Of a DNA stretch of 64,000 nucleotides, positions 42,387 through 53,958 are shown piece by piece. The position numbers and the translations under genes are program-made. The notes under the pieces were generated by a model that saw only the letters and a program-made list of their open reading frames with translations, made no database searches and was not told the origin of the DNA. The DNA lies in contig JANYDK010000083.1 in assembly GCA_025363655.1 (NCBI GenBank), forward strand, positions 62,001 to 126,000, read 5' to 3'. This stretch comes from Deltaproteobacteria bacterium (GTDB taxonomy: Bacteria; Myxococcota_A; Polyangia; Polyangiales; JADJMO01). Numbering within the stretch: position 1 is the first letter of the stretch; the number at the start of each line of letters is the position of its first letter.

Positions 42387-43691
42387 GTGACGTTGGACGA
42401 AGCCTTCGAGCTGCTCGGCGTCGGGCGTGACTCCGAGCCCGACGATCGTCGTCGCGCGTATCTGCGCCTCCTGAAGAAGCACAAGCCGGAGACCGATCCA
42501 GAGGGTTTTCGCCGCTTGCGCGAGGCCTACGAGCTGGCCGCCCACGCGCCCCAGCTCTTCGTCGAAGCGCTGCCCGAAACGAATGGGCCGCCGATTCCGA
42601 TGCTCGAGCGTCTGGTCGTCCCGCCGCCGAAGTCGCCGAAGGCGCCGAGCGAGCTCGAAAGCTCGGGAGCGACTTCCGGACAGTCGCTCGTGTTGCCGGC
42701 GGTCTTCGTCGCGATGGCCGAGGCGCAGCGACATCTCGAGCACGAGGAGGTGCGGGAGGCTGGCGAAGTGCTCGTCGCCTACTTCGACGCCTCTCACGAG
42801 TCGCCGGCGCCCCTCGCGGGGCTGACGTTGCGCGTCTTCTTCATGCTGCACGCGGAGAATCGACGTGAGGCCGCGGGGCTTCTTTTCAGGGCATTTCATG
42901 GCGTGTTGCGACGGACGCTCTCCGAGTCGTCGGCGCTCCGCGGACAAGGCGCGGTCGTCTATCTCCTCGCGGGCGAGCTCGACGTCGTCTCGCGCAAGGT
43001 CCCGTTGAAGTTCGCGCAAGAGCTGGCGATCGGCATGTTGATCGGCGAGTTCGGTGCGGCACGACGGTCACTCCTCGCCAACACGAAGTCGTCGCTCGAG
43101 CTGCTGACGTCGATGGAGCGCGGCGCGCCGCAGCTCTTGCAGCTGGTCGGCGTCCGTCGCGTGCAGCCGAAGCCTTCGCCACCGAAGCGCTTCTACGAGC
43201 AAAAGTGGACGTGGGCTCTGCTGCCGCTCATCGGCATCCTCTCGCAGCTCTCGCGGGGGCCGTGCAACGGCAGCCTCCCCGACTACACGAGCTCGACGAC
43301 GCAGGACATGTCGCTGCCCGAACCTGGAAACGTCGGAATGAAGCCGCAGAAGCCGCTCCTACCCGGCATCCCCACCGAGCTGACCGAGATGCCGACGACC
43401 GCGCCCGTCCCAAGCACCCTGCCGCCACGCGCGCGAGGCTTTCTCGCGGCGCAGAACGTCGAAACGGTCGCCAAGAGAGTGCCGCACACCGATCCTCTGC
43501 TGGCGGTCCTGAAGCCGCTCCTCGTGGCCATTCCGCGCTACGACTGCACCGTCATCGAAGCGGCCATGCGCGACGTCGAACGCGAGGTCGAAAAGCTCTC
43601 GACGTCCGACAAAACAAGCATATTTCTACAGCTCGACGCTCTCCGCACGGTCCTCGCAGAGATTTGCCCGAAGGGAGGAGACGCCCAGTGA
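42387..43691 (+). CDS. Membrane-anchored J-like protein, paralogue 2
   Basis: 434 residues. J-like domain at 1-55: [40 protein letters not shown] and [12 protein letters not shown]. The positions of the HPD loop read KPE within KHKPETDP, so helix II and III signatures remain but the Hsp70-activating tripeptide is changed. A long helical middle (about 90-270) follows, then a short membrane span ([18 protein letters not shown], about 275-292), and an outer C-terminal domain with the shared pattern ([20 protein letters not shown] ... LAEICP). The TGA overlaps the Hsp70 GTG start (GTGA), so the two are translated together. Confidence 0.82.
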
Positions 43692-45418
43692 GTCGCATCA
43701 TCGGCATCGATCTCGGCACGACGTACTCGCTCGTCTCGTACATGGCGGCCGACGGTCCGCGCATCATCCCCAATCGGCTCGGCGAGTCGCTGACGCCGAG
43801 CGCGGTGGCGCTCCTGCCCGATGGCACCACCGTCGTCGGTGCGCCGGCGCGCGCGCGTGCGACGACCGATCCCGAACGCACCGCGCGCTCCTTCAAACGC
43901 GACATGGGGACCGCGCGCCCTCTTCGCCTCGGTGCCCGCACGTTCTCGCCTCCCGAGCTCTCGGCGCTGGTGCTGTCGTCCCTGCGAAGCGACGCCGAGG
44001 AGCACCTCGGGGAGAAAATCGAAGAGGCGGTGATCACGGTTCCGGCATATTTCAACGACCTTCAGCGCCAAGCGACGCGTGACGCGGGGGCCATCGCCGG
44101 GCTCAAGGTCGAGCGACTCCTCAACGAACCGACCGCCGCAGCGCTCGCCTATGGCCTCAATCGCCGGGAAAAAGAGGCCCGCGTCGCCGTCCTCGATCTC
44201 GGCGGCGGCACCTTCGACGTCACCGTCCTCGAGATCATCGAGGGCGTCGTCGAGATCCAAGCGACGGCCGGCGACGTCGCGCTCGGTGGCGACGATTTCG
44301 ACGTGGCCATCGCCCGCCACCTCGCCACCCGCGATGGCTTCGATCGACTCGACACCGACGATCCGGTGACCGCGGCAAGGCTCCTCGAAGTCGCGCACCA
44401 AGCGAAGCACGCCCTCAGTCACGAAGAGACGACGCGCGTGGTGTTGGTCGACGCGCTCCTCCGCTCCGGAAAGCGTCACGATCTCGAGCTCGAGCTCTCG
44501 CGCACCGAGGCCGAGGGAGCTTTCGTCGAGCTCGTCGAGCGGATGCGCGCCCCGATTTTTCGTGCCCTCGCCGACGCCGGGAAGACGCCGGGGCAAATCG
44601 ACGAGGTGCTGCTCGTCGGTGGCTCGACGCGGATGCCATGTGTCTCGCGAATGGGAGCGCAGCTCTTCGGACGCCTGCCGCTGCGCACGCTTCCCCCCGA
44701 CGAGGCGGTGGCGCTCGGCGCTGCGGTGCAGGCGGCGCTCAAGGCGGACGACGCGGCGGTCGAAGATCTCGTCGTCACCGACGTGGCGCCTTTCTCCCTC
44801 GGCATCGCTGTCGCCGAGAGCTTCGGTGCCCGGCACGTCGACGGCGTCTTTCGTCCCTTGCTCGAGCGCGGAACGGTCATTCCCGCCAGTCGCGAGTCGC
44901 GCTTCTCGACGATGCACGAGGGGCAAAGGGAGATCCACGTCGAGGTCTACCAGGGCGAGCATGCGCTCTGTCGCGACAACCTCAAGCTCGGCGAATACAA
45001 GATCACCGGCCTGATGCCCGGGCCGGCCGGCGAGCAGACCATCGACGTGCGCTTCACCTACGACTTGAACGGTCTCCTCGAGGTCGACGTCAAGGTGACG
45101 AAGACGGGCCTCGGCGGCACCTTGGTCATCGAGCGCGGGGCGGGTGCGATGACGCCAGCGCAGGTCGAAGCCGCACGCAAGGCGATGGCGCGCCTCAAGC
45201 TCCATCCACGCGAGGCTTTGCCCAACACCACCGCTCTCGCCCGCGCCGATGCCCTCTACGCCGAGCTCACCGGCGACATGCGCGCGTTCCTCGGCCAACA
45301 CATCGCCGCCTTCCGCGATGCGATGGAGCGCCAAGAACCGAAGGCCATCGAAGCGATGCGCGATTCCCTCACCCGCATCACCCGCGATCTACGCGGGGCT
45401 CGCCCGTCGCGAAGTTAG
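43688..45418 (+). CDS. hscC: HscC-like Hsp70 chaperone
   Basis: 576 residues, shorter than DnaK and close to HscC length. GGAGGAG lies eight bases before GTG 43688. ATPase domain: [81 protein letters not shown]. Substrate-binding part: [60 protein letters not shown]. It lacks the long acidic lid end and EEVD-like tails of DnaK. E. coli HscC also works with membrane-bound J proteins (DjlB, DjlC), and here the gene sits between J-like genes. Confidence 0.92.
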
Positions 45419-45420
45419 CG

Positions 45421-46557
45421 ATGCGCCTCACCCTCGACGAAGCCTTGGAAATTCTCGGCGTCGACCGAGAAGCCGCCCGCGAGGTCCGTCGTCGCGCGTA
45501 TCTGCGTTTGTTGAAGAAGCACAAGCCGGAGAAAGATCCCGACGGATTTCGCCGCGTGCGAGAGGCCTACGAGGTCGCGGAGTCCGAGAACGGCGAGGCC
45601 GAGGAAATCGTGCTCGCGCCTGCGCCTGCGCCCGCGCCTGCGCCTGCACCCGCGCCTGCACCCGCGCCCGCGCTTGCGCCCGCGCCCTTCCTCGCGCTCA
45701 CCAACGCCGACGCCCTCCTTACCCAAGGCCTTCCCCTCGACGCCGCCATCACCCTCCGCACATCCCTCGACTCCTCCTCCGCCACTCCCGCCGTCCTCGC
45801 ACTCCTCTCCCTCCGCACCTGCTTGCTCCTCCACGCTCTCGCGCATCGCTCCGAGGCGTCTCTCCTCCTTGCGAGCCTTCGCGCCTCGCTCACGCGAACG
45901 GGCACGGAAGTGAGTGCGATCGGCGCGGAGCTGGTGTCGCTCTACCTCCTCGTGCGTGAGCTCGACCAGGTGGCGCCCCTGCTCGGGAGCCGGTTCGTGG
46001 CTACCCTCGCGCGAGGGGTTCTCGATGACGACTACGCGGCGGCCAAGCAGGTCCTCAGCGCCGATCTTCCGCAGGTCGATGCCGCGCTCGACGTGCTCGG
46101 AAAACGGGCACCCCATCTGCTCGGGGTGGTCGGCGCTCGTCGGATCGTGCAGTCCGGGCCGTGGAAGGTGGCGCGGTTCGTCGGGTCGACGACGGTATGG
46201 GGAATCCTCGTCGCCGTGCTCATCGGCCTGGCGTTGACGCGGCACCGGAGCGGGCCTCGCGAACCCGGTACGACGCAGAAAATCCAGGCGCGCGTGCTCT
46301 TCGAACAAAGGGCGCGCGCGCTCGCGCACGAGGTCGAGGCATGGGGGCCGAAATCGGCGAGGTTGCAGGCGCAAGCGATCGGACTCGCGGATGCCTCCGT
46401 GGCGTTGGTCGAATGCACGACACTGGAGACCGGGGTCGTCGACGTCGAAGCGTCGGTGGCAGCGCTCGAGCCGTCCGATCGAGCAACGTTGGCGACGCAG
46501 CTCGATGCACTTCGCTTTGCCTATCGCGAGCTCTGCCCTTCGAGCTCCGCGAAGTAG
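45421..46557 (+). CDS. Membrane-anchored J-like protein, paralogue 3
   Basis: 378 residues, starting two bases after the Hsp70 stop. J-like domain at 1-57: [55 protein letters not shown] again replaces HPD. An Ala-Pro repeat linker follows (about 62-88), then a helical middle, a span (VWGILVAVLIGLALTRH, about 250-268) and the shared outer domain: VECTTLETGVVDVEASVAAL, about 35 residues to YRELCPSSSAK. The end overlaps the convergent Dph6-like gene by 37 bases. Confidence 0.82.
   Translation: MRLTLDEALEILGVDREAAREVRRRAYLRLLKKHKPEKDPDGFRRVREAYEVAESENGEAEEIVLAPAPAPAPAPAPAPAPAPALAPAPFLALTNADALLTQGLPLDAAITLRTSLDSSSATPAVLALLSLRTCLLLHALAHRSEASLLLASLRASLTRTGTEVSAIGAELVSLYLLVRELDQVAPLLGSRFVATLARGVLDDDYAAAKQVLSADLPQVDAALDVLGKRAPHLLGVVGARRIVQSGPWKVARFVGSTTVWGILVAVLIGLALTRHRSGPREPGTTQKIQARVLFEQRARALAHEVEAWGPKSARLQAQAIGLADASVALVECTTLETGVVDVEASVAALEPSDRATLATQLDALRFAYRELCPSSSAK
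45613..45689 (+). repeat. Ala-Pro coding repeat (GCGCCT/GCGCCC/GCACCC units)
   Basis: About a dozen 6-base units encode an Ala-Pro run inside paralogue 3 of the J-like proteins. Such runs are stiff spacers and can change length by slippage. Confidence 0.7.
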
Positions 46558-47213
46558 TACGTCGCATCTCCCCACGCGTGCTTGGCGTCGTGCCGCGAGA
46601 CCCGCGCCACCCGATGCTCGACTGGCGCGACGAAGCCCGGCCCGTCGAAGACGAAGGTGTGAAATTCCCCGTTTTCTCCGCAATGATCGACACCTTCGGG
46701 CAAGTCGTTCAGCAGCGACTCGTCGAAGATGCGTCCGGCGAAGCTCTCGCCCAGCCACTTGCCGTTCACGCAGACGATGCGCGCGCGGATGCCGAGCGAA
46801 AGCACCTCGCGCACCACCTCGTCGCGGCGCAGGTGCCACAGCGGCAGAAGCGCGCGCAATTCGGCGGCGGCGCAGACCTTCTCTTCCCATTCCCGGTGCG
46901 GATCGAGATCGATGTCGCCGAAGACCATCTCGGTGAGACGGTGCGCCTCCCGCAGCTCGCGCAAGGTGGCGATGAAGCTCGCTTCGTAGTCGCTCCACGA
47001 GGCGGCCTTGCAGACGACCTGGAGGCCGAGCGCTGCGCCTTGGGCTTCGACCAGCACGCGAGGAACGCCGTGCGACCGCGAACGCTCGCTGGTCTCCTCG
47101 AGCATGCAGAGGACGCCGACGATCTCGACGCCGAGCTCCCGCGCGCGATGGAGCGCGAGCATCGAGTCCTTGCCGCCGCTGAAGCTGACGAAGGCGCGCC
47201 GCGTCGTATTCAC
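46521..47213 (-). CDS. Dph6-like ATP pyrophosphatase (PP-loop) protein
   Basis: 230 residues from GTG 47213, seven bases after the ketosynthase stop and so likely the last gene of the lipid operon. PP-loop AFVSFSGGKDSMLALHRARE; further signatures of the diphthine-ammonia ligase-like family are HGVPRVLVEAQGAALGLQV, VFGDIDLDPHREWEEKVC, PLWHLRRDEVVREVL and GVDHCGENGEFHTFVFDGP. In archaea and eukaryotes the enzyme makes the amide of diphthamide. Bacteria have no diphthamide, so here it probably adenylates some carboxyl group to form an amide. The substrate is unknown. Confidence 0.85.
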   Translation of the reverse strand: MNTTRRAFVSFSGGKDSMLALHRARELGVEIVGVLCMLEETSERSRSHGVPRVLVEAQGAALGLQVVCKAASWSDYEASFIATLRELREAHRLTEMVFGDIDLDPHREWEEKVCAAAELRALLPLWHLRRDEVVREVLSLGIRARIVCVNGKWLGESFAGRIFDESLLNDLPEGVDHCGENGEFHTFVFDGPGFVAPVEHRVARVSRHDAKHAWGDATYYFAELEGQSSR

Positions 47214-47220
47214 AATCGGA

Positions 47221-48555
47221 TCATGCGCTGGGATATCGCTCGAAGACGATGGCGCAGTTGTGTCCGCCGAAGCCGGCCGACTCTTTGATGGCGTAGCGGA
47301 AGTCGAGGGCCCGCGGACCGCCGCGCACGAGATCGAGCGTGAATATAGGGTCGATTTCGTCGAGGTTGATCGACGGGTGCACGCGCTGATCGCGCAGCGA
47401 GCACACCACCGCGATCGCTTCGGCCGCCGCGGCGCCGCCGAGGAGGTGACCGATCATCGACTTGGTCGCCGAGATGGGAATGCGCGGAAGGCGCTCGCCG
47501 AAGACGCGGGTGAGGGCGCGGAACTCGGCGACGTCGCCCTGCGTGGTCGAGGTCGCGTGCGGGTTGATGTACCCGATGTCGGCCGCGGTGATGCCCGCGC
47601 GCGCTATCGCCCGCTCCATCGCCAGGGCCAGTCCGGAGCCATCGGGGAGGGGGCTCGTGAGGTGCGCCGCGTCGCTCGTCATGCCGAAGCCGGCGACGTA
47701 CGCGAGCGGTTTCGCGCCTCGCTGCAGCGCGTGCTGCTCTTCTTCGAGCACCAGCGCGCCAGCGCCTTCGCCCATGACGAAGCCGGTTCGCTTCTTGTCG
47801 AAAGGACGGCTGGCGCGCGTCGGATCGCCTTCGAAGGCACGGGCCAGCGCGCGTGCGTTGCCGAAGCCAGCGACGCAGTTCTGACGGGTCGCTGCCTCGG
47901 CACCGCCGGCGACCATGACGTCGACGTCGCCCGCTTCGATCATCATCGCGCAGGTGGAGATCGAGTGCGCGCCGGTCGCGCACGCGCTCGCCATGCTGTA
48001 CGAGGGACCCTGCAGCCCGTAGCGCATCGTCACCAACGCCGCGCCGCCGTTGGGCATGACGCCGGGGATGAAGAACGGCGAGACGGCACGTGGCCCGCGC
48101 GCTGCGCTCTTGGCGACCTCTTGTTCGAAGATGTCGACCGAGCCCATGCCAGTGGAGAAGAGACAGCCGATGCGCGAGCGATCGAGACCATCCTCGAGGC
48201 TGTCGAGTTTGGCGTGTGCCGTCGCGATTGCTTCCGTTTCTTCTTCCGACTGCCCCTTCACCGGACGCGGAATCGGCGCAATTTTCGCCATTTCCAGCGC
48301 TTCGGCGCATGCGCCGATCGTGAAGTGGGTGACGCGTCCATAGATCTCGCTCTCTTTGCGGGAGAGGAATTTGAGCGGATCGAAGTCCTTCACGCTGGCG
48401 GCGATGTCGCTGCGCAGCTTGTCGGTCGGGAACATGTCGATGAACGACACGCCCGAACGACCTTCGAGCAGGTTGGCGAAGAAGGTGGCGACGTCGTTGC
48501 CAATCGGCGTGACGACCCCCAGCCCGGTAATGACGACGCGACGACGAGTGCTCAC
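47221..48555 (-). CDS. Beta-ketoacyl-ACP synthase II-like enzyme
   Basis: 444 residues, with GTG start 15 bases after the desaturase stop. Condensing-enzyme fold with the full catalytic triad: Cys in SMASACATGAHSISTCAMM, His in YINPHATSTTQGD, Lys and His in TKSMIGHLLGGAAAAEA. Gly-rich end GFGGHNCAIVFERY. It condenses malonyl-ACP with an acyl-ACP, adding two carbons. Given its neighbours it is more likely dedicated to one product than to general fatty-acid synthesis, as no other fab genes are present. Confidence 0.92.
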   Translation of the reverse strand: MSTRRRVVITGLGVVTPIGNDVATFFANLLEGRSGVSFIDMFPTDKLRSDIAASVKDFDPLKFLSRKESEIYGRVTHFTIGACAEALEMAKIAPIPRPVKGQSEEETEAIATAHAKLDSLEDGLDRSRIGCLFSTGMGSVDIFEQEVAKSAARGPRAVSPFFIPGVMPNGGAALVTMRYGLQGPSYSMASACATGAHSISTCAMMIEAGDVDVMVAGGAEAATRQNCVAGFGNARALARAFEGDPTRASRPFDKKRTGFVMGEGAGALVLEEEQHALQRGAKPLAYVAGFGMTSDAAHLTSPLPDGSGLALAMERAIARAGITAADIGYINPHATSTTQGDVAEFRALTRVFGERLPRIPISATKSMIGHLLGGAAAAEAIAVVCSLRDQRVHPSINLDEIDPIFTLDLVRGGPRALDFRYAIKESAGFGGHNCAIVFERYPSA

Positions 48556-48570
48556 GTCGGACTGCTTACT

Positions 48571-49413
48571 TCACTCTTCCGCGGAGCTGGAGCCGGAGAG
48601 CGCCTTGGCATCATCAACGGCCTGGCGCGCGTGGATCGCCGCGCCTTGGGCCTTCAAGATCTCGTGTCGCGAGACGTCGAGGTACTTGAGGATCGGGAAG
48701 TAGACCTTCTGGATGAAGACCTGACGATCGATGCCCGCTTCACGCATCTTGAGGATGCGCGAGTCGTAGTCGGGGACGAGGTCGACGCCCGGCATCTTGA
48801 AGTTGGCGAAGACGTGCGCCATGTCGCGCAGCGTGCCTTCGCGGTCTTCCTCGAGGAGAACTTTGATGACGTTCTCGTAGAAGCGGCAGTGCGCGATCTC
48901 GTCTTTGGCGACGTACTCGTAGACCTGACGAAGGGCCTCGTCGCCCTCTTTCGCCGCGCGATCGCGGTGCTTCAGGTAGATGATGAAGGTCGCCATCTCC
49001 TGCACGCAGCCGTAGAACGTCATCTGGCGCGCGGTCGAGAAGGGGAGCTCCCACTTCCTCTCCAAGATGCTGTTCTGCAGATCGAACATCTGCTCTTCGC
49101 TGCGGCGGCCGCTCTTGATCAGCCACTGGGTGAGGGCGAGCGAGTGCTTGCTCTCTTCGTAGGCCCAGTTCGCCTGGAACCACGCTTGACCGAAGTACCT
49201 GCGGACGACGTTGATGCCGCCGGCGACGTAGTCGGGCAGGTACATCTCGACCGAGCAGAAGGTCTCGGCGCAGAGCGCGAGGTCCTCGGACGCGTCCTTG
49301 TTCACCTTGTCCCAGGGGATGTCGGTGAAGACGTTCCAACGACGCTCGCGCTCGGCCTTCTCGAAGAAGGTCATGTACTCGCGGTAGAGGCGCTCTTCGA
49401 GGCGGGTTTTCAT
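48571..49413 (-). CDS. Ferritin-like diiron acyl-ACP desaturase-type protein
   Basis: 280 residues, all-helical. Two EXXH-type iron ligands are visible: NWAYEESKHSLALTQWL and YVAKDEIAHCRFYENVIKVL; further acidic residues lie in AETFCSVEMYLPDY and CVQEMATFIIYLKHRD. Spacing and the WDKVNKDASEDLALCAETF region recall acyl-ACP desaturases (FA_desaturase_2). These insert a double bond into the ACP-bound chain using O2 and a reductant. An ACP gene lies 16 bases upstream. Other diiron oxidations (hydroxylation, for instance) cannot be ruled out. Confidence 0.82.
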   Translation of the reverse strand: MKTRLEERLYREYMTFFEKAERERRWNVFTDIPWDKVNKDASEDLALCAETFCSVEMYLPDYVAGGINVVRRYFGQAWFQANWAYEESKHSLALTQWLIKSGRRSEEQMFDLQNSILERKWELPFSTARQMTFYGCVQEMATFIIYLKHRDRAAKEGDEALRQVYEYVAKDEIAHCRFYENVIKVLLEEDREGTLRDMAHVFANFKMPGVDLVPDYDSRILKMREAGIDRQVFIQKVYFPILKYLDVSRHEILKAQGAAIHARQAVDDAKALSGSSSAEE

Positions 49414-49429
49414 GGCGATTCCGAGTGTT

Positions 49430-49672
49430 TCAGGCAGGCAAGCGCGCTTCGATCTTCTTGCAGAGATCGCCGACGGTGACGAGCTCGACCAAGTCTTCGT
49501 CGGGGATCATGATCCCGAGCTCGGACTCCATCTCACCGACGATTTGCATCATCGAGAGCGAGTCGATGCCGAGGTCGGTGATCACCGATTCGCGGCTGAC
49601 GTTGGGGAATTCTTTGTGATCGACGCGGGAAGCGACGAGCTTGAACGTGGCGAGGAGATCGGGCTTTCCCAT
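49430..49672 (-). CDS. Acyl carrier protein
   Basis: 80 residues with the phosphopantetheine site Ser in ITDLGIDSLSMMQIVGEMES. Other helices: MGKPDLLATFKLVASRVDH and IPDEDLVELVTVGDLCKKIE. Acidic as usual. It is three bases after the methyltransferase stop and before the desaturase. It is the likely carrier on which the FAAL loads a fatty acid and on which the other enzymes work. Confidence 0.93.
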   Translation of the reverse strand: MGKPDLLATFKLVASRVDHKEFPNVSRESVITDLGIDSLSMMQIVGEMESELGIMIPDEDLVELVTVGDLCKKIEARLPA

Positions 49673-49675
49673 GAC

Positions 49676-50557
49676 TTAGTCGATCCTTCGGAGCTCGAAC
49701 TGAGCGAGCGAGCTGTAGTGCATGTCGAACGAACGGACGCAGGTGCTGAGGTAACGGTCGTAGTCGTCGAAGATTTTGTCGCCCCAGCGTTCGCGGATGG
49801 TCTTCTCGTGGCCGCGCATGCGGTGCAACCACTCGGCGGTGGTGCGCTGGTAGTGCTCGCGGCGCGAGTTGACTTGCATCACCTCGAAATGCGGGTTCAC
49901 CGCCTGGATGATGTCTTCGAGGCGCGGGTTGAGGCCGCCGGGGAAGATGACGTGCGTGCAGAAGTACACGTCCTCGAGGTCCTTCTTGATCCGCGGGGTG
50001 CGGTTTCGGAGGATCGCCTGGAGGCCGAAGTGCGCGCCCTTGTTGGTGAGCGCGTGCACGCGGCGGAAGTACTCGCGATAGATGTCGACCGCCTTGCCGA
50101 GGCGCGCTTCCTGCGGCGAGCAGAGGTGATCGATCATGCAGATGGAGATGACCGAGTCGAACTTCTCGGCGCTCTCCCACTTCATGAAGTCGGCCCCGAT
50201 GCACTCGGCGTTGGGGATTTTTCGGTCGTTCACTTCCTTCGCCTGTTCGGTCGAGAGGGTGACGCCGACGACGCGCTTGGCGTTGCGAACGGAGGATTGG
50301 TACTCCATGCAAGCGCCCCAGCCGCAGCCGATGTCGAGCACGCTCTTCTCGGGCGTCACGCGGGCGAAGTCCGAGAGGATCTTCAGCTTGTTGAGCTGCG
50401 CCTGCTCGAGCGTCTGGCCGCCTTGGCCCATCGCCCCCGTCTGCTCGATCGTCTCGTAGACGGCGCAGGTGTAGTTCATGCGCTCGTCCAGCCAGAGCCG
50501 GAAGAACTCGTTGGACACGTCGTAGCTGACTTCGACTTCTTGCTTACTCGATCCCAT
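49676..50557 (-). CDS. CFA synthase-like SAM methyltransferase
   Basis: 293 residues from ATG 50557, with GAGAGG eight bases before, overlapping the FAAL end by 14 bases. N-terminal signature YDVSNEFFRLWLDERMNYTC resembles cyclopropane and mycolic-acid methyltransferases (YNLGNDFYxLWLDxxMxYSC). SAM motif SVLDIGCGWGACMEYQ; then VVGVTLSTEQAKEVNDR and ICMIDHL. These enzymes add methyl carbon across a double bond to give a cyclopropane, methyl or methylene branch. With the desaturase two genes downstream, the chain would be desaturated then methylated. Confidence 0.9.
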   Translation of the reverse strand: MGSSKQEVEVSYDVSNEFFRLWLDERMNYTCAVYETIEQTGAMGQGGQTLEQAQLNKLKILSDFARVTPEKSVLDIGCGWGACMEYQSSVRNAKRVVGVTLSTEQAKEVNDRKIPNAECIGADFMKWESAEKFDSVISICMIDHLCSPQEARLGKAVDIYREYFRRVHALTNKGAHFGLQAILRNRTPRIKKDLEDVYFCTHVIFPGGLNPRLEDIIQAVNPHFEVMQVNSRREHYQRTTAEWLHRMRGHEKTIRERWGDKIFDDYDRYLSTCVRSFDMHYSSLAQFELRRID

Positions 50558-52355
50558 CGGTGACCTCTCGTGTCGATACGGACGCGCGCGACGCCTCCTC
50601 CGAGATCTCGGAAGACGAAGGGGGAGGCAGAGAAAGCGATGATTCACGGTCGATCGAGAGGAGCTCGCCGGTCTCGAGGCGACGCTTGGTCTCGCGACGG
50701 CGGACCTTTCCACTCGACGTCTTGGGGAGGGTGCCGCGCCGGATGAGGTGCACTTCGTCGAGCGTGAGCCCGGTCTCGGCGCGCACGGCTTGGATGATCT
50801 TGGCGACGATGGCCTCGCCCTCGACGCCGCCCTTGCGACCTTCGGCGACGATGACCGCGTGCTCGGCGCCGCTGTCGTCGAGGCGCGAGAAGGCGACACA
50901 CTGCTGCTCGCGCACGCCCTCGACGCTGGAGACGACGCGCTCGATGTCCTGCGGGTAGTAGTTCTTCCCGTTGAGGATGATGAGGTCTTTGCAGCGGCCG
51001 CAGATGAAGAGCTCGCCGTCGGCGAGATAGCCGAGATCGCCCGTGCGTAGCCAGCCCGCATTTTCCGCGTCGAACGCGGCTGCGGTGGCTTCGCGATCCT
51101 TGAAATAGCCGCCGGTCACGCTCGGACCGCGGAACCAGATTTCGCCGACCATGCGATCGGTCATGCGCGCGCCGTCGTCGCCGACGATCGCCAACTCGTG
51201 TCCGGGGAAGGCCTTTCCGCAGCCGACGAGCTCGAGGGCGGGACGCTCGTCGGTGGCGCCGACGGCGATCGCTTTGCCGGTGCGCATCGCCTCGACGCAG
51301 ACCTTGTCGACGCGCATCGGCGTACCGAGCTCGTGGAAGGTGATGGCGAGGGTGGCTTCGGCCATGCCGTAGCAAGGAAGGAGCGTCTCCGGACGCAGCC
51401 CCTGCGCGTGGAAGCGTTTGACGAACGCCTCGAGGACGCTCGCTTGAATCGGTTCGGCGCCGCAGCCGAGGACGCGCACGCGAGACAGATCCCACTCCTT
51501 CGTCTGACGCTCTTGCACCGCGCGGGTGGCGAGCGCGTAGGCGAAGTTCGGCGCGAAGCTGATGGTGCCCTTGAAGCGATGAAGTGCGTCGAGCCAGAGC
51601 GACGGACGACGGATGAAGCTCGCGGTCGGGAGGAACATCACCTCGACCTGCGCGTAGAGCGGCGCCACCACGAAGCCGATGAGGCCCATGTCGTGATAGA
51701 GCGGCAGCCAGCAGACGCCGCGATCTTCGGGGGTCGCCTTGAGCCCGTCGAACATGATGCAGTGGCTGTTCGCCGAGAGGTTCGCGTGGGTGACGCAGAC
51801 GCCCTTCGGCTTGCTCGTCGAGCCCGAGGTGAACTGGAGGAACGCGAGATCGCCGAGCGCGACGGTGAAGTCGAGCGCCTCCGAAGAGAGCGCGTCGCCA
51901 CGCACGTCACGTTCGAGCAAGAGGCGCGTGTCGAACTCGCGGGCGCGTTCGCCGTCGCCACCCTCGGCGCCGAGGAGGTGCTCTTCGAGCATCGGCAGGA
52001 GCGCTTCGCTGGTGACGAGAATTTTCGCGCCCGAGCCGGTAAGCACGTGGCGGACGGTCTCGCCGTAGGCCTCGAGCTTTGCCAGCGTCGCCGGCGGATA
52101 GATCGGAACGGCGACGATGCCGCCCATCAGCGCGCCGAGGAACGTGAGGACGAACTCTTGCGGATCGTGGAGGACGATCGCCAGTCGATCGCCGCGGACG
52201 AGACCTTGCGCATGAAGCGCTCGCGCCCTGCGGTTGGCGGCGGCGTAGACCTCGGGGAACGAGACGCGGACTTCCTCACCCGTCGCGCGGACGAAGGTGA
52301 TGGCACGGTCCGCATGGCGGGCGTTGTCGCGGAGGATATCGAGGAGCGTCTGCAT
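50544..52355 (-). CDS. Fatty acyl-AMP ligase (FAAL)
   Basis: 603 residues. Adenylate-forming motifs: FLQFTSGSTSKPKGVCVTHA, WLPLYHDMGLIGFVVAPLYA, PCYGMAEATLAITFHE, LRTGDLGYLADGELFICGR, CKDLIILNGKNYYPQDIE, and the catalytic Lys in LPKTSSGKVRRRET. The YHDMGLIG and NYYPQDIE forms are characteristic of FAAL rather than acyl-CoA ligases. The enzyme activates a free fatty acid as acyl-AMP and passes it to an ACP, here the one two genes downstream. It opens the operon. The C-terminal about 30 residues are Ser/Pro/Glu-rich. Confidence 0.93.
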   Translation of the reverse strand: MQTLLDILRDNARHADRAITFVRATGEEVRVSFPEVYAAANRRARALHAQGLVRGDRLAIVLHDPQEFVLTFLGALMGGIVAVPIYPPATLAKLEAYGETVRHVLTGSGAKILVTSEALLPMLEEHLLGAEGGDGERAREFDTRLLLERDVRGDALSSEALDFTVALGDLAFLQFTSGSTSKPKGVCVTHANLSANSHCIMFDGLKATPEDRGVCWLPLYHDMGLIGFVVAPLYAQVEVMFLPTASFIRRPSLWLDALHRFKGTISFAPNFAYALATRAVQERQTKEWDLSRVRVLGCGAEPIQASVLEAFVKRFHAQGLRPETLLPCYGMAEATLAITFHELGTPMRVDKVCVEAMRTGKAIAVGATDERPALELVGCGKAFPGHELAIVGDDGARMTDRMVGEIWFRGPSVTGGYFKDREATAAAFDAENAGWLRTGDLGYLADGELFICGRCKDLIILNGKNYYPQDIERVVSSVEGVREQQCVAFSRLDDSGAEHAVIVAEGRKGGVEGEAIVAKIIQAVRAETGLTLDEVHLIRRGTLPKTSSGKVRRRETKRRLETGELLSIDRESSLSLPPPSSSEISEEASRASVSTREVTDGIE

Positions 52356-52632: not shown

Positions 52633-53958
52633 TCAGTCGCCTTGGCGGAGCTCTTTGAGGAGGGCGACGATCTTCTTCGACAGCTCCTCGTCCTTGCGGA
52701 CGAAGTGGGTGATGCCGAGCTGCTGCAGCAAGCTGACGTCGTGCTGTTGGGCGCCGGCGCTGACCGAGACGATGGTGCACTGCTCGGCGATCTGGGTGCC
52801 GCGTAGGTACATGCACACCTCGATGCCGTTCATACGCGGCATGTGGAGGTCGAGGAGGAGCACGTCGGGTGGGTGCTGGTGCATGGCGTCGAGTGCGGCT
52901 TCGGCCTCGTTGACGATGCGGATGTCCGCGTCGGGCACGGCCTTCTTCGCGTAGAAACCGAGGAGCCGCGCCAGCTCCTTGTCGTCGTCGACGACGAGCA
53001 CCGACCAAGGTTTCGACGGCGTCGGCTCGGGCGGCGCGAGGGCGATCGGCGCGGGGGCCTTTCCGATTTGCCGCAGCTGGAAGGCGACCGACTCCATGCT
53101 CTGCGGCCGCTCGGCGGCGTCCTTGGCCATCAAATCGCGGATGAGGCGCGAGAGGCGCGGCGGGCAATCGGAGCGAAGGAGCCCGACGTCCGGCACCTCG
53201 TCGTGGACGTGCGCCTTGAGGATGTCGGCGATGCTGTCGCCATCGTACGGGAGCTCGCCGATGAGGAGCTCGAAGCCGATGATCCCGAGCGCGTACATGT
53301 CGACGAGGAAGGCGCCGCCCTTCTCCATGCTGTCGGTGATCGTCTCGGGCGCCATGTAGCCGGGCGATCCGCTCATGGTGCCGCTGCGGCGCGCGTCGAT
53401 CTCGGGGAGAACGATGCCGAAGTCCATGAGGATGGTCCGGTTGCCCGGCGCGATCATGATGTTCTCGGGCTTGATGTCGCGGTGCGCGACGCCGGCGCGG
53501 TGCACCGCCGAGAGGCCTTCGGCGATCGACGCCAGGAGATCGAGCGTCTCGGCGATGGTGAAGGGGACCTGCGAGTGCAGTCGCTTGTCGATGTGGTGAT
53601 CGAGGCTGACGCCGTAGATGCGCTCCATCACCACGTATTCCATGCCGCGGTGCACGCCGAGGCAGTAGACGGTGATCATGCTCGGGTGACGGATGGCGGC
53701 GATCGCCTGCGCCTCCTTCTTCAAGCTCTGCGCGGTGACGTGCGGCCACGCCGCCTTGATGGCGACGCGTCGGTTGAGGCCGCGATCGTGCGCTTCGAAG
53801 ACCTGTCCCATGCCGCCGGCGCCGATGACCGAACGGATCTCGTAGTTCTCGCCGAGCACTTCTCCGACCGTGAAGATGTCCTTCTTGGTCGGCGGTGGTC
53901 CCGACGAGTCGTGCGACGGATCCAGGTCGGTCGGCGCACGCAGGGGGGACTTCGACAT
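52633..53958 (-). CDS. Ser/Thr kinase with a C-terminal receiver domain
   Basis: 441 residues, soluble. Kinase at about 35-300: IGAGGMGQVFEAHDR, VAIKAAWPHVTA, catalytic loop AHRDIKPENIMIAP, LMDFGIVLPEID, GYMAPETITDS. Then a receiver at about 322-440: VLVVDDDKELARLLGFYAKK, Asp in VLLLDLHMPRMNGIEV, IVSVSAGAQQHDVSLL and Lys in HFVRKDEEL. In a receiver, a histidine kinase would phosphorylate the Asp, so this protein links a two-component input to Ser/Thr phosphorylation. It has no membrane span, unlike the kinase at 21558. Confidence 0.92.
   Translation of the reverse strand: MSKSPLRAPTDLDPSHDSSGPPPTKKDIFTVGEVLGENYEIRSVIGAGGMGQVFEAHDRGLNRRVAIKAAWPHVTAQSLKKEAQAIAAIRHPSMITVYCLGVHRGMEYVVMERIYGVSLDHHIDKRLHSQVPFTIAETLDLLASIAEGLSAVHRAGVAHRDIKPENIMIAPGNRTILMDFGIVLPEIDARRSGTMSGSPGYMAPETITDSMEKGGAFLVDMYALGIIGFELLIGELPYDGDSIADILKAHVHDEVPDVGLLRSDCPPRLSRLIRDLMAKDAAERPQSMESVAFQLRQIGKAPAPIALAPPEPTPSKPWSVLVVDDDKELARLLGFYAKKAVPDADIRIVNEAEAALDAMHQHPPDVLLLDLHMPRMNGIEVCMYLRGTQIAEQCTIVSVSAGAQQHDVSLLQQLGITHFVRKDEELSKKIVALLKELRQGD

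Follow-up and report, generated by a model that had tools for sequence, protein, structure and literature searches.

What does a compact row of genes that seems equipped to activate, modify and lengthen a fatty acid do in a soil myxobacterium? The question is raised by a stretch of 64,000 nucleotides from a member of the Polyangiales (assembly GCA_025363655.1, contig JANYDK010000083.1, positions 62,001 to 126,000; hereafter the window), in which open reading frame analysis reveals six intact genes in a row, all on the minus strand, at 46521-52355. The first five code for a stand-alone fatty acyl-AMP ligase (FAAL), a short C-methyltransferase of the CMAS type (MT), an acyl carrier protein (ACP), a soluble diiron protein of the acyl-ACP desaturase type (DES) and a FabF-like ketosynthase (KS), while the sixth codes for a Dph6-like ATP pyrophosphatase. 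The evidence presented below suggests that the first five probably constitute a self-contained carrier-protein module that remodels a free fatty acid by loading, desaturating, methylating and extending it.

Conservation of the five-gene unit

The FAAL and MT genes overlap by 14 bp, and the succeeding gaps are 3 bp (MT-ACP), 16 bp (ACP-DES) and 15 bp (DES-KS), bearing out the original prediction of five tightly packed genes on one strand. That prediction also took them for a dedicated unit and proposed a comparison of gene order in other Myxococcota. We recovered the same five-gene order on a single strand at nine other loci of the order (loci are denoted by L and genomes by G), namely in the Sorangium cellulosum strains L013, L014, L015 and L017, in a Sorangium metagenome-assembled genome (MAG; L012) and at L039, L041, L042 and L043; L016, a Byssovorax MAG, was taken to be the same record as L039 because the two contigs are equally long. 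As both order and strand are repeated at nine other loci, the association of the five genes exceeds chance. At L009, from a genome of the window's own family (G002), FAAL-MT-ACP-DES is accompanied by a KS on the opposite strand. An orthologue of the FAAL is the first gene in the nine other five-gene operons, as well as in four four-gene operons that are described below.

Across the phylum, the MT family has matches in at least 88 of 377 genomes at a threshold of 1e-40, and the DES profile in at least 12 of 377, these counts being lower bounds because at most six candidates were scored per genome; G002, which has a DES, lies outside the 12, having been either missed or not drawn. The contig scan for relatives used exact peptide words and hence reports close kin only. 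An ACP-coding stretch adjoins the DES gene in all 12 DES-profile genomes, each of which also has an MT of the operon's family.

The ligase and the carrier protein

The FAAL (50544..52355, 603 aa; Pfam AMP-binding, 1.6e-65) finds its best solved-structure match in the Escherichia coli fatty acyl-adenylate ligase 3pbk (7e-97), followed by ligases of the FadD32, FadD23 and FadD28 types, some chains of which were labelled by their depositors as acyl-CoA synthase or adenylation domain. The CoA synthetase FadD13 appears only at rank 19 (4e-32). Its best NCBIfam match is likewise a FAAL subfamily, PRK09192, with 482.9 bits, which is below the cut-off of 600. The FAAL-specific insertion, which we take to be placed after the YGMAE motif, is present, and all gaps in the alignment of this region to the E. 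coli FAAL are of one residue. By these sequence comparisons the window ligase resembles FAALs more closely than it does acyl-CoA ligases. In the ACP (49430..49672, 80 aa; PP-binding, 1.3e-11) the phosphopantetheine serine sits in a GIDSL motif, of which G35, D37 and S38 are invariant in an alignment of 14 ACPs.

The diiron protein and the ketosynthase

The DES (48571..49413, 280 aa; FA_desaturase_2 PF03405, 3.7e-20) has six residues, E56, E87, H90, E139, E172 and H175, which are invariant in an alignment of 12 sequences and which we take to be the diiron ligands. A sequence alignment with the castor stearoyl-ACP desaturase covers five of these six sites, E56 being placed by motif. The structure model of the DES also matches the castor enzyme (Foldseek 4e-6, template-modelling score (TM) 0.63), and DesA2 of Mycobacterium tuberculosis is among its further matches; the models used here were built from 8 and 12 sequences, and that of the MT is globally poor. 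We considered whether the diiron protein could instead be a hydroxylase or some other oxygenase, as related dimetal-carboxylate halogenases of the CylC type occur with FAAL and ACP genes, which lie upstream of the halogenase with a polyketide synthase (PKS) downstream, in the systems covered by the pertinent section of PMC8406957. R2-like ligand-binding oxidases do occur in the fold list of the DES, but they rank below the acyl-ACP desaturases, which are its nearest neighbors in both sequence and fold, and a partner of the CMAS type needs an olefin. We accordingly regard an oxygenase as quite improbable.

The KS (47221..48555, 444 aa; ketoacyl-synt, 2.4e-44) aligns to FabF through the catalytic cysteine and both histidines (SACATG, NPHATST and KSMIGH). 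The NPHATST motif is unusual in form, and its PHATST part is present in all 14 operon KSs, which also keep the His and GFGG motifs (14/14). The protein scores 460.7 bits against NCBIfam PRK07314, above the cut-off of 387, and 470.9 bits against the fabF model TIGR03150, below the cut-off of 493.75. As the same genome holds a separate housekeeping FabF, which with 565 bits is above its cut-off, the operon KS is an extra ketosynthase. The operon DES is the sole FA_desaturase_2 match in this genome, and the operon MT is the one full-length protein among its eight CMAS matches; membrane desaturases account for eight further matches, two of them within one frame.

Probable natural loss of the desaturase gene

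In four genomes of one genus (G318, G360, G386 and G388) the operon reads FAAL-MT-ACP-KS, with a gap of 9-11 bp between ACP and KS, and no DES was found in these whole genomes, in which all first-look candidates were scored. In an MT tree made without the short fragments L100 and L045, the four DES-less operons group with the DES-bearing L039 (SH-like approximate likelihood-ratio test (SH-aLRT) support 98) inside a 14-row operon clade (support 96). Since the DES-less MTs nest inside a DES-bearing clade, loss of DES is the simplest history. The FAAL and KS trees group the same four with the window, L039 and Sorangium in a set of 11 rows (support 93 and 96, respectively) without finer resolution, the DES-bearing L041-L043 standing apart from this set. 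DES is thus removable, and its candidacy as an essential partner of the MT was rejected, as these four genomes keep the operon and show no DES. The remainder of the unit appears to work, or at least to be kept, without it. G360 has 10 membrane-desaturase matches, and enzymes of this kind could supply olefins in the DES-less genomes. Furthermore, the gene after the G360 KS and the next labelled gene cluster with their counterparts at the Sorangium locus L013, where Pfam identifies them as DsbH and OmpA. The So ce26 operon with DES and the G360 operon without it have a common downstream flank, and so offer a natural comparison.

The methyltransferase and its active site

The MT (49676..50557, 293 aa; CMAS PF02353, 2e-57) lacks the first ~100 residues that phospholipid-type synthases have at the N-terminus, its residues 4-289 aligning to 108-373 of a Lactobacillus synthase; the E. 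coli Cfa has 382 aa. Its top Foldseek matches are the mycobacterial PcaA, MmaA2 and CmaA2 (TM ~0.5, root-mean-square deviation ~12, mean pLDDT 78). The active-site set comprises C140, D143, Q180 and Y236. We take C139, E239, H266, I268 and Y317 of E. coli Cfa to be the bicarbonate-site residue set; the corresponding residues of the window MT are C, D, Q, I and Y. The glutamine at Cfa position 266 recurs in all 53 myxobacterial MTs compared, a set that leaves out L016 and the partial L110. In a wider residue comparison of 31 proteins ten have histidine at this position: the Cfa-type enzymes of E. coli, Vibrio and L. curvatus, the M. branderi CMAS, four other CFA-family proteins and two from Streptomyces. 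Eight of these ten have the full canonical five-residue set, and Tyr 317 is kept in all 31 save the two Streptomyces proteins.

Bicarbonate acts as the base in cyclopropane ring formation, as described in the relevant part of PMC10491745. Because glutamine replaces H266 and the five-residue set is thereby incomplete, the window MT was not filed as a cyclopropane synthase, and because this replacement is seen in 53/53, a ring is not a safe guess for its product. The MT might nonetheless close a cyclopropane on an ACP-bound olefin in the manner of the mycolic acid cyclopropane synthases, with an elongated cyclopropane fatty acid as the product. Its best fold matches are these very enzymes, four of the five site residues are kept or conservatively replaced (C139, E239 to D, I268 and Y317), and cyclopropane acids of comparable kinds exist, including medium-chain acids for which CFAS genes have been proposed (in the part of PMC6213206 concerned with them) and the imidacins of the myxobacterium Stigmatella (in that of PMC11301661). 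Against this stand the glutamine in all 53 MTs and the full canonical set in 8 of the 10 histidine-bearing proteins, which lead us to consider the cyclopropane product somewhat unlikely. An open-chain methyl branch, with a shifted double bond or an exomethylene group, appears somewhat likelier from the residue pattern. Of the original prediction of methylation or cyclopropanation of the double bond, cyclopropanation of a DES-made olefin is thus weakened by the invariant glutamine and by the four DES-less operons.

There are precedents for CFA-family enzymes that yield no ring. UfaM, a CFA homolog without ring closure, converts vaccenate to 11-methyl-12-trans-18:1 (in the relevant passages of PMC7380195 and PMC10876521). 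It resembles the window MT in being paired with desaturation, in the UfaM-UfaD-UfaO system (same passage of PMC7380195), and ufa-type plasmid MTs share the glutamine; the Ufa system differs from our case in that the products are furan fatty acids in phospholipids and in that no FAAL, ACP or KS is involved. All six genes in the row match families other than those of the UfaD flavoprotein and UfaO (DUF1365) partners, further neighbors not having been scanned for DUF1365. In the BfaAB system of 10-methyl fatty acids, the CFA-family MT likewise places a methylene branch on an olefin, but the passage on it in PMC7791843 gives a phospholipid substrate, a flavin reductase partner and a retained bicarbonate site.

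At position 140, 19 of the 53 MTs have cysteine, and a FAAL lies within 5 kb of all but one of these (18 of 19), the exception being L090, which is near a contig end. Glutamate occupies this position in 31, and no labelled FAAL was seen within 5 kb of any of them, some of the contigs being short; three distant MTs have glycine. We also noted two loci (L044 5953-7971 and L077 7453-9434) at which the gene overlapped or abutted by the MT belongs to the ERG4/ERG24 sterol reductase family, the Pfam name being taken from a homolog at L040 (14629-15783). ERG4 reduces an exomethylene group in sterols, and a route of methylene formation and subsequent reduction is conceivable at these two loci.

A wider module in other phyla

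With the window MT as the query, plasmid matches included a Thalassospira cluster of the order desaturase-ACP-MT-P450-hydrolase-FAAL and a Polaromonas cluster of the order FAAL-desaturase-ACP-MT-desaturase-KS-PKS. The Polaromonas MT as the query recovered plasmids of Pseudonocardia (with the same six genes as Thalassospira), two of Sphingobium, and those of Tistrella and Rhodococcus. Among seven plasmid records whose short MT is of the Gln type, which are a chosen set and not a random sample, a FAAL is found in 7/7, an annotated or matched ACP gene in 6/7 and a desaturase in 5/7, the Rhodococcus record having only a short carrier-like match for the ACP. The same desaturase/MT/P450/hydrolase/FAAL cluster is found on plasmids of Pseudonocardia (L151 6746-12625), Thalassospira (L140 12671-18839) and Rhodococcus (L150 7800-13214), and hence in two phyla, with an annotated ACP in the first two. 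The DES as a plasmid-search query drew six records, which are 23-29% identical to it. The clusters of Thalassospira, Pseudonocardia and Polaromonas resemble the window operon in having an MT of a shared clade beside ACP, FAAL and desaturase genes, but their desaturases are annotated as acyl-CoA or fatty acid desaturases rather than being of the soluble DES type, and they have a P450 and a hydrolase, or a PKS, where the operon has the FabF-like KS. The operon represents one form of a wider module of FAAL and short CMAS-like MT, as a rule with an ACP, which is also found on plasmids of Pseudomonadota and Actinomycetota.

In the phylogeny the myxobacterial MTs and those of the seven plasmid records form one clade of 27 rows (support 100/99), and the one mycobacterial CMAS row lies just outside it on a long branch. 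This clade includes two Streptomyces MTs with histidine, which have KAS III and FAD oxidoreductase neighbors, so that glutamine at 266 is not universal within it. The plasmid MTs H3 and H4, which lie beside flavoprotein and DUF1365 genes and are thus of the ufa type, also have glutamine at 266, and ufa-type MTs branch apart in the free tree. A separate origin of the glutamine in the ufa-type MTs (approximately unbiased (AU) test, p 0.0024) was withdrawn, as that test forced out the nested histidine-bearing Streptomyces rows; a single Gln-type clade was not rejected either with these rows allowed in (AU p 0.38) or with them left out (p 0.26). To equate the MTs of the plasmid ufa operons with UfaM is not secure either, since the position of UfaM relative to the ufa operon differs between species. 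In R. sphaeroides UfaM is RSP2144, which lies outside the operon, the in-operon RSP1089 being dispensable, and the UfaM of R. palustris (RPA2569) is numbered beside ufaO and ufaD.

On the two Sphingobium plasmids (L152 6911-10791 and L154 6878-10639) ACP-MT-FAAL follows a gene annotated as an acyl-homoserine-lactone synthase in L152, with a 79% homolog in L154; this cluster possibly makes a methylated-acyl signal from a free fatty acid.

Proposed mechanism and alternatives

We propose that the FAAL would adenylate a free acid and load it onto the operon's own ACP, on which the DES would desaturate the chain. The MT would then move a methyl group from S-adenosylmethionine onto a C=C double bond, either one made by the DES or one already present. 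The chain so modified would pass from the ACP to the KS, which would condense it with malonyl-ACP in a two-carbon extension and hand the product to the general fatty acid synthase of the host or to a later enzyme. This order of steps is that suggested by the chemistry of the respective families, and the nature of the substrate, product and fate is to be read in the same conditional sense. FAAL activation, carrier-bound desaturation and extension by the KS had all been predicted originally, and the sequence features expected of each are present.

Several observations weigh against this proposal. As the rest of the operon is retained in four genomes that lack DES, the MT and KS appear not to need the double bond made by it. 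In G047 and G028 the DES and MT genes are on separate contigs, and in G053 ~10.6 kb lies between them; for family f5 the stretches examined (two of them contigs of <10 kb) contain no FAAL or KS of the operon type, and many MTs of the family are without operon-type partners within 5 kb. The unit has no thioesterase, reductase or transferase that could release the chain, which suggests that the KS itself could be the exit, to the malonyl-ACP of the general synthase. As for the open-chain product, its link to the glutamine is indirect, two Streptomyces members of the wider clade have histidine at 266, and the methylene-forming BfaB was chosen for its conserved bicarbonate site, according to the passage in PMC7791843.

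The unit could alternatively supply a secondary metabolite with its starter acid, with the KS acting in trans with other carrier or PKS proteins, and never contribute to a membrane lipid. In other orders of Myxococcota, FAAL-MT-ACP is followed by a PKS that includes an alpha-oxoamine synthase domain (L089 1738-12486 and L093 2107-11712), the latter PKS being KS-AT-ACP-KR-DH-oxoamine synthase by Pfam; at L089 and L092 (8075-12009) the order is membrane desaturase-FAAL-MT-ACP. The combination of FAAL-MT-ACP with a membrane desaturase, an oxoamine-synthase PKS, or both suggests long-chain amino-ketone lipids. Likewise, in G047 and G028 ACP-DES is divergent to an adjoining KS and chain-length-factor-like KS, accompanied in G047 by an oxoamine-synthase-like gene of the pyridoxal phosphate (PLP) type, and the plasmid relatives sit with P450s or a PKS. 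However, none of the six scanned neighbors of the Sorangium locus L013 is biosynthetic, Pfam identifying ABC transporter-type and DUF4340 genes upstream and the DsbH and OmpA genes downstream. These bare flanks mildly favor a lipid, whereas the PKS-linked cousins favor a metabolite, and we consider the metabolite starter unlikely. A further arrangement was observed at L007 (5180-10413), where a KS, a chain-length-factor-like KS and an oxoamine-synthase-like PLP gene are divergent from ACP-DES-ACP.

Returning to the module that remodels a free fatty acid, we extend the proposal more tentatively, with our doubts outweighing our confidence. The MT may belong to an undescribed clade acting on FAAL-loaded, carrier-bound chains across Myxococcota, Pseudomonadota and Actinomycetota, in which glutamine for histidine would lead to open-chain methylation with a shift of the double bond, and the product would depend on the genes that accompany the MT (a desaturase of the soluble or membrane kind, a P450, a KS or an oxoamine-synthase PKS). 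In the present case the KS would return the branched chain to fatty acid synthesis, and the result would be a membrane or signal lipid with a methyl branch. If this is true, the operon would be a minimal, movable module that places a methyl carbon inside a carrier-bound free fatty acid, and so a part for the engineering of branched lipids; it would also allow a direct test of which active-site residue makes a member of the cyclopropane synthase family form a ring or a branch. The operon offers a lipid hypothesis for Sorangium, which is a cultured genus.

Relation to known systems

The original prediction knew of no described pathway with exactly this set. In literature searches for the gene set, none of the matches listed describes the operon in its title or abstract, so this claim is not contradicted among them, though the plasmid clusters reveal close relatives of the module in other phyla. 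Among the passages returned by searches on myxobacterial fatty acids, no profile names a product of the operon.

The meromycolate toolkit of mycobacteria (FadD32, AcpM, DesA1/DesA2, CmaA/MmaA and KasA/B) presumably comprises the same five enzyme types, and the fold matches of the DES and MT include DesA2, PcaA, MmaA2 and CmaA2. Its genes are scattered in mycobacteria, where the FAAL acts late, and the window MT differs further in its glutamine for histidine. Another comparison is offered by the jamaicamide pathway, whose desaturase is membrane-bound. In its JamABC system, a stand-alone FAAL charges a discrete ACP with a free acid, and the desaturase acts on this ACP before PKS extension (as set out in a passage of PMC11837247). 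At 10 loci including the window, a single operon likewise combines a stand-alone FAAL with a discrete ACP and an oxidase that would modify the chain. The Jam desaturase differs in yielding an alkyne, and the said passage of PMC11837247 mentions no CMAS-type methyltransferase; the words Sorangium, myxobacter- and cyclopropan- are absent from the main text of that paper.

The Dph6-like gene

The sixth gene (46521..47213; Diphthami_syn_2, 6.2e-37) had been counted originally as a further member of the unit, from which an amide of the fatty acid was considered as a product. It lies on the same strand, 7 bp past the KS, and matches the ATP-pyrophosphatase family, in keeping with a pathway enzyme that forms such an amide; its score against the NCBIfam Dph6 equivalog is 87.9 bits, below the cut-off of 197.3. 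Nevertheless, it is not found within 5 kb of the MT at any of the 14 other operon loci (nine five-gene loci, L009 and the four DES-less ones). Homologs occur in 10 of 56 relatives including the window's own genome, with 39-43% identity in the other nine, and the four other genomes of the host's family gave no match. Where a homolog occurs in a genome with MT or DES, it is on another contig or ~200-245 kb away (G030 and G015). Its membership in the operon was rejected on these grounds, and as it does not travel with the operon, the amide product is not supported either. A role of this ATPase in the pathway is thus very improbable.

Neighboring genes

Upstream of the operon, across a gap of 277 bp, the minus strand at 52633-53958 carries a predicted protein kinase-like gene with a receiver-like C-terminal part. 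At the opposite end, a putative DnaK/Hsp70-like gene flanked by two mutually related J-domain-like genes lies on the plus strand at 42387-46557, converging on the end of the operon.

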